Below are positions 31,242 to 33,612 of a stretch of DNA of 64,000 nucleotides, in pieces (within the stretch, counting starts at the first letter, position 1; every line of letters begins with the position of its first letter). Below the pieces are notes generated by a model that was not told the origin of the DNA, did no database searches, and was given only the letters and a program-made list of their open reading frames with translations. Position numbers and translations under genes: made by a program. This DNA is from Oscillospiraceae bacterium (lineage in GTDB: Bacteria; Bacillota; Clostridia; Oscillospirales; Acutalibacteraceae): NCBI GenBank assembly GCA_902786285.1, contig CADABX010000004.1, positions 1-64,000 of the forward strand, given 5' to 3'.

Positions 31242-31293
31242 AAAAAGACGCCCTGCGGCAGCGTTCGGCTGCCGCAAAGACGTCTTTGCCTTT
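31242..31293 (-). promoter_or_regulatory. gdhA leader module 2: ANTAR hairpin over terminator
   Basis: Minus-strand hairpin AAAGGC-[AAAGAC]-GTCTTT (31276-31293): 6-bp stem with hexaloop A1, G4. Its 3' arm is part of the 5' arm of a long terminator (31247-31284, about 15 bp with one bulge) ending in T5 (31242-31246). The two folds exclude each other. Confidence 0.8.
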
Positions 31294-31305
31294 ACAAAAG
31301 ATGAT

Positions 31306-31353
31306 GAAAAAAGAGAGTCCCCGGGCGTATTGCCCAAAGACTCCGTTGCCTTT
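31306..31353 (-). promoter_or_regulatory. gdhA leader module 1: ANTAR hairpin over terminator
   Basis: Minus-strand AAAGGC-[AACGGA]-GTCTTT (31336-31353), hexaloop A1, G4. The terminator stem 31332-31343 with 31315-31326 (12 bp, loop of five) reuses the hairpin's 3' arm and ends in TCTTTTTT. The predicted transcript start is within a base or two of the hairpin. Confidence 0.82.
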
Positions 31354-31360
31354 TGACCGC

Positions 31361-31390
31361 ATTTTACACCCGCGCATGTGTATTTGTCAA
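31361..31390 (-). promoter_or_regulatory. gdhA promoter
   Basis: Minus strand TTGACA (31385-31390), 18-base spacer, TAAAAT (31361-31366). Confidence 0.82.
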
Positions 31391-31486
31391 CACGATTTTT
31401 GAATTTTTTACAATTTAATGCAAAAAGACCAAAAGACCGTGTCCGCCGACCGGTGGTTTTTGTGAAATGTGTTTTTCCGCTTTGTC

Positions 31487-31515
31487 TTGACGCAGCCGAA
31501 AAAAACAGGTATAAT
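31487..31515 (+). promoter_or_regulatory. Promoter of the GS-I/ANTAR operon
   Basis: TTGACG (31487-31492), 17-base spacer, TATAAT (31510-31515). Expected start near 31522, at the foot of the ANTAR hairpin. Confidence 0.8.
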
Positions 31516-31522
31516 GAGAACG

Positions 31523-31580
31523 ATGAGCAAAGGCGTTCATTCCCGCAGACCCAAACTGCACCGGAATGGACGTTTTCTTT
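31523..31580 (+). promoter_or_regulatory. GS-I leader: ANTAR hairpin over terminator
   Basis: Hairpin ATGAGC-[AAAGGC]-GTTCAT (31523-31540): 6-bp stem, hexaloop A1, G4. The terminator pairs CGTTCATTCC (31534-31543) with GGAATGGACG (31563-31572), with an inner GCAG/CTGC helix, and ends TTTTCTTT (31573-31580). It consumes the hairpin's 3' arm, so only one fold can form. Only one such hairpin is seen here. Confidence 0.75.
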
Positions 31581-31610
31581 CTATACATGAAGATACAGGA
31601 GGTGCTTCTC

Positions 31611-32822
31611 TTGCAGTTTTCAAAAGAAGAAGTGCTGCAATATGTGCAGGAGGAGGATGTGAAATTCATCCGTCTGGCGTTCTGCGACGTATTCGGCAAA
31701 CAAAAGAATATCTCGATCCTCGCCGAAGAGCTCGAGCGTGCGTTCCAATACGGAATCGCGTTTGACGCGTCGGCCGTTGCCGGCTTCGGCGACGAGGTGC
31801 GCTCCGATCTGCTGCTGTGGCCGGAGCCGGATACGCTGGCCCTGCTGCCGTGGCGGCCCGAGCAGGGACGCGTCGTGCGTATGTTTACGCGTATCACCTA
31901 CCCCGACGGCACGCCGTTTGAATGCGACACACGCAGTCTGCTCAGGAACGCGATGGCTGCCGCGCGAAAAAAAGGCTATACGTTTTATTTCGGCGCGGAA
32001 CAGGAATTTTATCTGTTCCGGCTGGACGAACAGGGCGAACCGACCAAAACGCCGTATGACAAGGCGGGGTATATGGACATTGCGCCCGACGACCGCGGCG
32101 AAAATGTGCGGCGCGAAATCTGTCTGACGCTCGAACAGATGGGTATCCGTCCCGAAAGCTCCCATCACGAGGAGGGACCCGGCCAGAACGAGATTGATTT
32201 TCGCTACGCCGACGCGCTGACCGCCGCCGACCAGGCCCAGACCTTCCAGACGATTGTCAAAACCGTTGCGCACCGCAACGGGCTTTGCGCCGATTTTTCG
32301 GCAAAGCCGCTGGAAAACGCGCCGGGCAACGGCTTCCATATCAATCTTTCCGTGCGTCCGTGCGAAGGCGACGGTTTGTTTCAGCATGTCATCGCCGGTG
32401 TGCTGGCTCACATCAAGAGCATGACGGCGTTTTTAAACCCGACCGAGCAATCCTATCAGCGGCTGGGCAAAAACAAGGCGCCGACCTATCTTTCGTGGTC
32501 ATGCGAAAACCGCTCGCAGCTCATCCGCATTCCGGCGGCCGCGGACGAATACCGCCGCATCGAGCTGCGCTCCGCCGATCCGACGGCAAATCCCTATCTG
32601 ACCTTTGCGCTGATCATCTATGCCGCGCTGGACGGCATGGAAAAGGATCTGCCGCTGCCGGCGCCGTGCGACGTCAACCTGTATAAGGCCGACGCCCAGT
32701 TTCTTTCGCAATTTGACCGCCTGCCGGCGTCTTTGTCGGCGGCCTGCAGCGCTGCGGCGGGCAGCGACTTTATTCGCGCACATGTACCGGCGCGTGTCCT
32801 CGATATCTACTGCAACCGATAA
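31611..32822 (+). CDS. Glutamine synthetase, short type I family
   Basis: 403 residues, shorter than the usual 440-470 of GlnA. TTG start (31611) chosen: CAGGAGG ends eight bases before it and no in-frame ATG has a ribosome site. Beta-grasp domain at the N terminus, then the catalytic domain with FGAEQEFYLF, GPGQNEIDFRYADAL, NGFHINLS (ammonia/glutamate site) and RIELRSADPTANPYL. Joins ammonia to glutamate with ATP. The missing length is mainly at the C terminus, where the adenylylation region would be. Followed 45 bases later by the ANTAR gene and then GS-III, so one organism carries two GS types in one operon. Confidence 0.9.
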   Translation: MQFSKEEVLQYVQEEDVKFIRLAFCDVFGKQKNISILAEELERAFQYGIAFDASAVAGFGDEVRSDLLLWPEPDTLALLPWRPEQGRVVRMFTRITYPDGTPFECDTRSLLRNAMAAARKKGYTFYFGAEQEFYLFRLDEQGEPTKTPYDKAGYMDIAPDDRGENVRREICLTLEQMGIRPESSHHEEGPGQNEIDFRYADALTAADQAQTFQTIVKTVAHRNGLCADFSAKPLENAPGNGFHINLSVRPCEGDGLFQHVIAGVLAHIKSMTAFLNPTEQSYQRLGKNKAPTYLSWSCENRSQLIRIPAAADEYRRIELRSADPTANPYLTFALIIYAALDGMEKDLPLPAPCDVNLYKADAQFLSQFDRLPASLSAACSAAAGSDFIRAHVPARVLDIYCNR

Positions 32823-32867
32823 ATCCGACATTTCAACAACACCGGACGAAGAAAGGAGGCAGCCGTT

Positions 32868-33449
32868 ATGCAACTGCAAGAGCGCGTTTACAGTGTGCTC
32901 GTTGTTTCCGCAGCGGAAAAATTCAACGCTGCGCTGTTGCCGCTGCTGCCTGCGTCCGGGTTTGAACCGGTCACGGTGGTGTCCGATATCAGCAGCGCCA
33001 AGCGCGCCGTTTTGCAGCGCACCTACGATCTTGTCATCATCAATGCGCCGCTGCCCGACGATATGGGCGTGCGTTTTGCCATTGACGCCGGCAGTCAAAG
33101 CGAGGCCATCGCGCTGCTGCTCGTGCGCGAAGCGTTCTATGCCGAGCTGACCGCGCGGCTGACGCCCTACGGGGTGTTCACCATGCTCAAGCCGACCTCC
33201 GCCGCCCGCATGGCGACAGCGCTGCACTGGATGACCTCGGCGCGCGAACGACTGCGCCGGAACGAAACAAAAGCGCTGTCTCTGCAGGAAAAGATGGAGG
33301 AAATCCGCCTTGTCAACCGCGCCAAGTGGATTTTGATCGAACAGCGCGGGATGGATGAACCGACCGCGCACCGCTATATCGAAAAACAGGCGATGGACCG
33401 CTGCGTCACACGCCGCGCGATCGCACAGGAGATTGTGGGACAGGAATGA
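32868..33449 (+). CDS. ANTAR-domain RNA-binding antitermination regulator
   Basis: 193 residues. N-terminal receiver-like domain (about 5-120) and a C-terminal ANTAR three-helix domain (about 135-190: KMEEIRLVNRAKWILIEQ, then MDEPTAHRYIEKQAMD, RRAIAQEI). ANTAR proteins bind paired RNA hairpins with A1/G4 hexaloops and prevent termination. The receiver is degenerate: where a phosphoacceptor Asp is expected (DLVIINAPLPDD) there is Asn, so control by a kinase is unlikely; protein-protein or ligand control is more probable. AAAGGAGG ribosome site. Sits between the two glutamine synthetase genes, whose leaders and that of gdhA carry the matching hairpins. Confidence 0.93.
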   Translation: MQLQERVYSVLVVSAAEKFNAALLPLLPASGFEPVTVVSDISSAKRAVLQRTYDLVIINAPLPDDMGVRFAIDAGSQSEAIALLLVREAFYAELTARLTPYGVFTMLKPTSAARMATALHWMTSARERLRRNETKALSLQEKMEEIRLVNRAKWILIEQRGMDEPTAHRYIEKQAMDRCVTRRAIAQEIVGQE

Positions 33450-33504
33450 AAAACGCTTTGCAAACGGGCACGGTTTTCCCGGTACAAAGCGACAGTATAC
33501 ATAA

Positions 33505-33549
33505 AAAGGCAATGGGGTCTTTGGGTATTACACCCAAAGGCCCTCTTTT
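33505..33549 (+). promoter_or_regulatory. GS-III leader module 1: ANTAR hairpin over terminator
   Basis: AAAGGC-[AATGGG]-GTCTTT (33505-33522), hexaloop A1, G4. The terminator pairs 33515-33525 with 33533-33543 (11 bp, loop of seven) followed by TCTTTT, and shares the hairpin's 3' arm. Confidence 0.82.
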
Positions 33550-33560
33550 CAATATTATAC

Positions 33561-33612
33561 AAAGGCAACGGTGTCTTTCGCATTTTTTTGCAAAGGCGCC
33601 GTTTCTTATTTT
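33561..33612 (+). promoter_or_regulatory. GS-III leader module 2: ANTAR hairpin over terminator
   Basis: AAAGGC-[AACGGT]-GTCTTT (33561-33578), hexaloop A1, G4. The terminator pairs 33569-33581 with 33590-33601 (12 bp, one bulged C) and runs into TTTCTTATTTT. No strong promoter is seen between the ANTAR gene and module 1, so readthrough from the GS-I operon is the likely input. Confidence 0.8.

Follow-up and report, generated by a model that had tools for sequence, protein, structure and literature searches.

How can a single RNA-binding regulator gate a set of nitrogen-assimilation genes whose leaders present one hairpin per terminator, when the targets known for its family present two? The question is raised by a stretch of 64,000 nucleotides (nt) of an Oscillospiraceae bacterium (assembly GCA_902786285.1, contig CADABX010000004.1, positions 1-64,000, forward strand), hereafter called the window, in which the glutamate dehydrogenase gene gdhA, on the minus strand, stands back to back with a plus-strand run formed by the gene of a type I glutamine synthetase-like protein (GS-I), the gene of an ANTAR protein and the gene of a type III glutamine synthetase (GS-III). 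No other ANTAR gene was detected in this genome (2.39 Mb, 90% complete). Known ANTAR targets associate two hairpins, P1 and P2, which in the eut leaders of Enterococcus faecalis are separated by a linker of 5-12 nt (PMC3369931, in excerpt). The comparison of leaders reported here lends good support to the view that the modules of the window and of its relatives would be one-hairpin ANTAR antiterminators, used alone or in series next to the promoter, and new with respect to the dual-hairpin targets.

Five hairpins of one design, in which a loop of six bases has A at position 1 and G at position 4 (A1/G4), had been proposed for the gdhA, GS-I and GS-III leaders by the initial annotation, and all five were found there. 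The gdhA gene (29885..31219, minus strand; NADP-type, from its open reading frame (ORF), Pfam and NCBIfam NF006929) is preceded on the same strand by a promoter whose -35 box TTGACA (31385..31390) is separated by an 18-bp spacer from the -10 box TAAAAT (31361..31366), the last base of which lies 8 nt before hairpin 1, AAAGGC[AACGGA]GTCTTT (31336..31353). The latter shares its arm with the 5' arm of terminator 1, which has a U tract (31307..31343), and hairpin 2, AAAGGC[AAAGAC]GTCTTT (31276..31293), likewise shares its arm with the 5' arm of terminator 2 (31244..31287). On the plus strand, the GS-I promoter (-35 TTGACG, 31487..31492; 17-bp spacer; -10 TATAAT, 31510..31515) also ends 8 nt before a hairpin, in this case a single one, ATGAGC[AAAGGC]GTTCAT (31523..31540), whose arm is common to the 5' arm of a terminator with a 19-nt loop and a U tract (31531..31581). 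The leader of GS-III carries hairpin 1, AAAGGC[AATGGG]GTCTTT (33505..33522), with terminator 1 (33514..33550), and hairpin 2, AAAGGC[AACGGT]GTCTTT (33561..33578), with terminator 2 (33567..33612), both on the plus strand and both followed by a U tract. Promoters were recognised by a promoter pattern, terminators by a terminator search and RNAfold, and hairpins by a pattern search and a covariance model, except that of GS-I, which comes from the leader alignment.

All five window hairpins have a 6-bp stem closed by a C-G over a G-U pair, and the 3' arm of each lies inside the 5' arm of a terminator of its own, two in series for gdhA and GS-III and one for GS-I, so that the proposed architecture holds throughout. 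Folding of the three leaders by RNAfold attributes -3.4 to -4.3 kcal/mol to the hairpins and -19.8 to -31.0 kcal/mol to the terminators; since the terminators are far more stable, they should win when no protein is bound. Compared with the dual-hairpin targets defined by Ramesh (2012), the A1/G4 hexaloop on a C-G-closed stem and the intrinsic terminator overlapping the 3' arm are present, and the second A1/G4 hairpin (P1) a few nucleotides upstream is absent. At gathering thresholds, Rfam gave no match in the window. A search of the genome with one mismatch allowed was unspecific (26 matches versus 17 in a reversed control), and the hairpin calls in the genome rest on five zero-mismatch matches and the covariance model.

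The pattern search also revealed a second GS-III gene, which the initial annotation had missed, on contig C23 of the same genome (L044, 4338-6431). The two copies are 97% identical, and that of C23 is followed by the gene of an ammonium transporter fused to PII (AmtB-PII) and then by purF. It has a full promoter and three A1/G4 hairpins in series; the window copy stands behind the ANTAR gene without a strong promoter of its own. With the C23 leader included, the folding energies extend from -2.2 to -4.3 kcal/mol for the hairpins and from -18.5 to -31.0 kcal/mol for the terminators. Because the U tract behind its first hairpin is poor, this leader scores two modules in the GS-III count given below.

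Are these single hairpins, or the visible halves of classical pairs? A sigma-70 promoter (TTGA..-TA...T) precedes the first hairpin in 43 of the 48 leaders examined. In 39 of the 43, this 6-bp hairpin begins 7-12 nt past the last base of the -10 box, that is at about +1 to +5 if the transcription start is deduced from the promoter match; in the remaining four the spacing is 4, 18, 21 and 22 nt. The covariance model found 29 further loci, three of them in genomes used to build it, and the 26 with a promoter all have a spacing of 9-12 nt. A hairpin starting at +1 leaves no room for P1. A lenient search for A1/G4 hairpins 2-25 nt upstream of 78 modules returned 5, versus about 7 on average for any one of the 15 remaining base combinations, and the same region of the 29 model-found loci returned 4 versus about 2.6. 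Of the 30 linkers that separate one hairpin from the next, 28 measure 28-66 nt, and the other two (20 and 138 nt) both belong to one doubtful leader. Furthermore, a single hairpin is the rule for GS-I in all nine loci of the genus whose leader was available, and the 27 GS-III leaders with a module carry one in 12 cases, two in 12 and three in 3. The contrast drawn by the initial annotation, between known ANTAR targets with two hairpins and leaders with one hairpin per terminator, is supported, and in most leaders the room for P1 is absent.

The A1/G4 loop could have been favoured by a search that looks for it, and a loop-blind scan, which retains every hexaloop hairpin of at least 5 bp overlapping a terminator whatever its loop bases, does not have this bias. 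It was applied to 44 homologous leaders (11 of gdhA, 24 of GS-III and 9 of GS-I); seven other GS-III leaders (L090, incomplete, and L091 and L100-L104, where no hairpin was seen) are counted in the GS-III tally versus ANTAR, and GS-I leaders from beyond the genus in a tally of 25 GS-I leaders. The scan yielded 61 hairpin/terminator modules, 54 of them with A1/G4, versus none of 5 modules in the reversed leaders, none of 2 in the leaders of other-type gdhA genes (17 of 19, two incomplete ones being dropped), and 1.4 modules with 0.15 A1/G4 per set of shuffled leaders. Leaders that had kept the terminators and lost the A1/G4 loops, which would have spoken against the initial annotation, were looked for: seven of the 61 modules are not A1/G4, and no whole set of leaders has lost it.

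For the covariation analysis and the covariance model, named R1, 30 of 64 collected modules were aligned; as these rows were picked by the A1/G4 pattern, only the statistics of the stems, and not the invariance of the loop, count as evidence. The terminator helix is paired in 90.3% of the cells versus 79.3% in shuffled alignments, 10 of its 12 pairs show a change of both partners in one or more sequences, and none of 500 shuffles came as high on any of five measures; the hairpin helix is paired in 95.0% of the cells. In the nine GS-I leaders, 93.2% of the cells are paired, the hairpin arms are invariant, and the changes on the opposite strand of the terminator pass through wobble pairs, as one would expect if an arm had to pair with either of two partners.

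The search of relatives with R1, which the initial annotation had suggested as a check, was carried out on 197 genomes of the order and indicates that the module tracks ANTAR. An ANTAR gene is present in 31 of the 32 genomes with a match at E<=1e-5, versus 83 of the 165 without such a match, and in 47 of 52 versus 67 of 145 at E<=1e-3; these genomes are related and not independent, which makes the Fisher P values optimistic and tells against taking them at face value. Weaker matches, with E from 0.01 to 0.1, show no such association with ANTAR (11 of 22) and were not used. Among 46 GS-III leaders, the module occurs in 27 of the 39 from ANTAR genomes (26 of 30 genomes) versus none of the 7 from ANTAR-less genomes. 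One R1 match each in G052, G127, G206, G087 and G068 lies at a gene unrelated to nitrogen, was judged to be a plain terminator and was set aside. Small alternative hairpins are possible in any terminator arm, and some model matches in ANTAR-less genomes resemble plain terminators, but the A1/G4 excess over the controls, the tracking of ANTAR and the near-constant promoter-to-hairpin spacing lead us to reject, as very improbable, the notion that the modules are plain attenuators, that is constitutive weak terminators with overlapping hairpins unconnected with ANTAR.

Is the ANTAR protein of the window (32868..33449, plus strand; Pfam, alignment and structural model) equipped to bind such hairpins? 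Its ANTAR domain (PF03861) scores 67.5 bits for a cut-off of 27.3 in Pfam. In EutV, the residues K143, K147, Y164 and M172 contact the hexaloop, the first two being contributed by the dimer's second subunit (PMC8934654, in excerpt). A profile alignment matches them with R147, R151, H168 and M176, which are invariant in all 23 aligned ANTAR relatives; the contact residues are therefore kept or conservatively replaced, and EutV Arg142 aligns with a non-basic Ile/Leu. The AlphaFold model has a pLDDT of 90.5, and among the 50 PDB matches listed, the best TM-score (0.78) is that of an RNA-bound EutV chain and the lowest E-value that of Rv1626 (TM-score 0.54). The phospho-acceptor Asp expected at the end of strand beta 3 of the receiver, where Rv1626 has its Asp, is Asn59 in at least 90% of the 23 proteins (it is Asp in L034 and L038), and Pfam at 0.001 finds no receiver domain in the ANTAR protein. 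From its sequence, the receiver domain is best described as a pseudo-receiver, as in AmiR, and its input is likely to be a partner protein.

In actinobacteria, several ANTAR targets cover a ribosome site or a start codon (PMC8164766, in excerpt), and the protein could act in the opposite sense or elsewhere, by promoting termination or blocking translation; since the modules sit upstream of the Shine-Dalgarno sequence, and since the hairpin and the terminator share an arm, so that a stabilised hairpin excludes the terminator, we give this next to no credence and reject it.

A number of observations weigh against one-hairpin antitermination, and they are brought together here. On the biochemical side, EutV is inactive on a target deprived of P1 (PMC3369931, in excerpt), its antitermination is abolished when the linker is lengthened by 20 nt (PMC8934654, in excerpt), and NasR binds P2 alone more weakly, at about 12 uM (PMC7496416). 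On the genomic side, the loop invariance of R1 exists by construction, as do in part its scores in its own genomes, and in the nine GS-I leaders the both-side pair changes are not significant, being reached by 66 of 500 shuffles. The promoter-spacing rule weakens farther out: of 23 loci at class level, for which a looser promoter pattern was used, 8 keep the spacing of 9-12 nt, two others show 17 and 21 nt and four show 42-80 nt, and the remaining 9 gave no promoter match. Of 25 GS-I leaders, 11 carry hairpin and terminator (nine in the genus, G025 and G035), 2 carry a hairpin for which no terminator was found and 12 carry neither; 19 of 30 gdhA loci (at most 69% identical to the window gene), several of them in ANTAR genomes, have no module, nor have 12 of the 39 GS-III leaders from ANTAR genomes, 7 of these 12 being second gene copies. 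Five of the 52 genomes with a match at E<=1e-3 have no detected ANTAR gene: in four (G052, G127, G206 and G087) the match reads as a plain-looking terminator at a non-nitrogen gene, and in the fifth (G118) it falls in a purA leader that shows the promoter-hairpin layout. In the genome of the window itself, the GS-III copy lacks a good promoter, and in the C23 leader, terminator 1 (L044, about 6550-6600, minus strand) is followed by a poor U tract, TTCCAATC, and may therefore cause a pause rather than termination.

Some of these points would suit classical dual-hairpin elements with a very long linker, hairpin 1 acting as P1 for hairpin 2 and terminator 1 being incidental. The weak U tract of the first C23 terminator goes in that direction, as does the fact that two hairpins are usual for gdhA and as common as one for GS-III. 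However, this explanation does not accommodate the single-hairpin leaders of GS-I and GS-III counted above, and the linkers of 28-66 nt exceed what EutV tolerates and moreover hold a terminator. We regard it as improbable and reject it in favour of single-hairpin modules, each acting on its own terminator.

The regulon proposed by the initial annotation is thereby supported, as far as sequences allow, by the single ANTAR gene, the A1/G4 modules, the compensating changes, the co-occurrence with ANTAR and the lack of a P1. RNA binding and antitermination are what we infer from the conservation and the geometry of the modules, and we consider it likely that each hairpin overlaps its own terminator in such a way that the predicted binding of ANTAR to single hairpins permits read-through into gdhA, GS-I/ANTAR and GS-III. 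In the absence of bound ANTAR, the terminator (about -19 to -31 kcal/mol) would prevail over the hairpin (-2 to -4 kcal/mol), and termination would be the default. An ANTAR dimer would grip one hairpin and thereby block the formation of the terminator until the polymerase has moved past the U tract. With modules in series, the read-through probabilities would be multiplied, so that the enzyme genes would be shut off more tightly and respond more steeply than the singly gated GS-I/ANTAR operon.

What, then, would be the input of this switch? The GS-I-like protein encoded just upstream of ANTAR (31611..32822, plus strand; Pfam and sequence comparison) is a candidate. Of 80 named loci, the best of 589 and mostly from gut and rumen Clostridia, 74 have a same-strand GS-I gene that ends no more than 300 nt upstream of ANTAR, and the remaining six are cut off 95 nt or less before ANTAR. 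The catalytic flap of active enzymes reads PGYEAP (PMC6076278, in excerpt). In the window protein, as in 73 of the 74 GS-I proteins of the named loci, Lys replaces the Glu of this flap; once the relatives of the window are added, it does so in 90 of 94 distinct linked proteins (96 of 100 loci before six repeats were dropped), and Glu is found in all 22 ordinary GS-I proteins read of 37 listed. The position aligned with R62 of the Bacillus subtilis enzyme is Asp in 78 of 91 distinct linked proteins and Arg in 22 of 22 ordinary ones, and the linked GS-I of the window also lacks this Arg. Such residue changes suggest that the GS-I-like protein is probably a glutamine-synthetase-like sensor, poorly active or inactive, and not a second working synthetase. 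The same genome contains an ordinary second GS-I (G000, C1:73049-74287). The coordination of glutamate dehydrogenase and both glutamine synthetases, as the initial annotation put it, is borne out insofar as the gdhA, GS-III and GS-I leaders all carry modules; it has to be amended for GS-I, whose flap Lys makes a working synthetase improbable, so that the targets besides gdhA are better read as GS-III and the sensor/regulator operon itself. The sensor proposal goes beyond the claim of that annotation, from which the pseudo-receiver is also absent.

The signal and its direction we infer from these changes taken together with the pseudo-receiver: as the receiver has no phospho-acceptor Asp, the most likely source of the signal would be the neighbouring GS-I-like protein, which would keep ANTAR bound under ample glutamine and free it when nitrogen is short. 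Deletion of the type I glutamine synthetase of Clostridium thermocellum is reportedly followed by a rise of the nitrogen-assimilation genes and of glutamine, as expected if the synthetase restrains ANTAR. In that organism, the pair consists of Clo1313_2030 (ANTAR) and Clo1313_2031 (type I glutamine synthetase) (PMC4676874, PMC9888227, in excerpt).

The strongest competitor retains the RNA switch as described and brings the nitrogen signal by another route, such as the AmtB-fused PII, a small ligand on the pseudo-receiver or an unlinked kinase, the GS-I-like protein being a ligase, ordinary or amine-specific, whose only link with ANTAR is the shared operon. Indeed, the metal and substrate residues (equivalents of the Glu pairs, His269 and Arg359), and with them those for ATP and glutamate, are kept in 95/98 to 100/100 linked GS-I proteins, related ligases using other amines exist, to judge from the titles of papers, and AmtB-PII is itself a target in relatives. 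Moreover, five ANTAR genomes (G004, G008, G020, G026 and G030) show only ordinary-type GS-I, three of them (G008, G020 and G030) with a one-hairpin GS-III leader, so that the sensor role cannot be universal; these genomes and the kept residues count against the sensor. On the other hand, GS-I stands directly before ANTAR in all 74 named loci that extend far enough, nearly all members of the linked class have the flap Glu to Lys change and have lost the R62-equivalent Arg, neither of which is seen in the 22 ordinary proteins, and the deletion of the ANTAR-linked type I glutamine synthetase of C. thermocellum deregulates nitrogen metabolism, according to the title of a paper. We consider this alternative possible and the less likely of the two origins of the signal. 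The complete scheme, which we put forward tentatively, as a serious possibility rather than as the expected outcome, would be a kinase-free circuit of gut and rumen Clostridia in which a disabled glutamine synthetase paralogue holds or frees a pseudo-receiver ANTAR protein acting on stackable, P1-less one-hairpin antiterminators, with glutamate dehydrogenase, GS-III, AmtB-PII, glutamate synthase (GOGAT) and purF/purA/asnB as targets and one dimer per hairpin being enough.

How far does this set of targets extend? GS-III (33636..35726 in the window, plus strand; ORF and Pfam) is the most constant and the widest of them. For gdhA, 11 loci at least 79% identical to the window gene carry A1/G4 hairpins, usually two, and the GS-I and gdhA modules appear mostly confined to the genus and its near relatives. 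The 29 order-wide loci precede GS-III in 22 cases, AmtB-PII in 3, gdhA and purF in one each and genes outside the panel in two, one of these being purA, recognised by eye. The class-level search gave a model match at E<=1e-3 in 25 of 196 genomes, and the matches include leaders of GS-III, gdhA, AmtB-PII, purF and asnB. A module was also seen by eye in the leader of the GOGAT large subunit of G020.

Other leaders of relatives deserve mention. The same one-hairpin module is borne by purF, purA and asnB leaders (L139, L142/L167, L175, L259 and L274); the products of purF and asnB use up glutamine, yet they share the switch with GS-III. In L267, a module separates gdhA from a downstream gene, the start of which resembles GMP synthase (guaA, by eye), perhaps as an internal operon switch. 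In L083 and L088, GS-III follows directly behind gdhA without a promoter match and is gated by a single intergenic module. A two-hairpin GS-III leader precedes a seemingly broken GS-III, with a start and then a short C-terminal frame, in L160 (G028, C49). In the window, the GS-III gene is followed by asnB, for a glutamine-hydrolysing asparagine synthetase (35902..37482, plus strand; ORF and Pfam), and a reading frame of about 50 residues (35743-35892) lies between the two.

The proposed system can be compared with several known ones. With EutV and the eut leaders of E. faecalis, it shares the A1/G4 hexaloops, the arm common to an intrinsic terminator and matching RNA-contact residues; in contrast, EutV needs P1 and P2 with their short linker and has a phospho-acceptor, whereas here one hairpin near +1 serves each terminator and the receiver lacks that residue. 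In B. subtilis, a working, feedback-inhibited glutamine synthetase senses nitrogen and binds the DNA-binding regulators TnrA and GlnR; the use of a glutamine synthetase as sensor would be common to both, the sensor here being a flap-altered paralogue and the regulator an RNA-binding one. The Sac/Bgl RAT antiterminator proteins form a family unrelated to ANTAR. As predicted for our leaders, a single stem-loop excludes the terminator at their targets (PMC3369931, in excerpt), and the RNA motif differs. AmiR-AmiC of Pseudomonas and NasT-NasS also place an ANTAR protein under the control of a partner protein, and AmiR also has a pseudo-receiver (PMC8934654, PMC3795266, in excerpt) and, in our alignment, a His at the position of EutV Tyr164; the partner here would be a glutamine-synthetase paralogue, and the amiE and nasF leaders are dual-hairpin. 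The Desulfotomaculum acetoxidans regulon (Ramesh 2012) likewise has several ANTAR elements per unit (13 in six) and nitrogen genes; it was found with a dual-hairpin model, and the part of that paper available to us does not describe one hairpin per terminator. Finally, the systems of NitR in C. acetobutylicum and of Clo1313_2030/2031 in C. thermocellum also place an ANTAR-type regulator near glutamine synthetase and GOGAT genes (PMC4676874, PMC9888227), for which the excerpts of these sources describe no leader structure.

The structure of EutV bound to RNA (2022), in which a dimer holds one hexaloop, led its authors to ask why two hairpins exist; in the excerpts at hand, they propose a recruitment role of P1 in antitermination and urge bioinformatics on single-hexaloop sites (PMC8934654). 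In titles and abstract openings, mostly without the subscription papers, we met no description of a one-hairpin ANTAR antiterminator or of a glutamine synthetase as partner of an ANTAR protein. The leaders described here look like natural P1-less antiterminators and make the two-hairpin question raised for EutV directly testable. Search models built on two hairpins would be expected to miss such a regulon, which here is paired with a glutamine synthetase of altered flap, likely a nitrogen sensor of a new kind. If this is true, one dimer per hairpin would overturn the rule that ANTAR antitermination requires a two-hairpin target.

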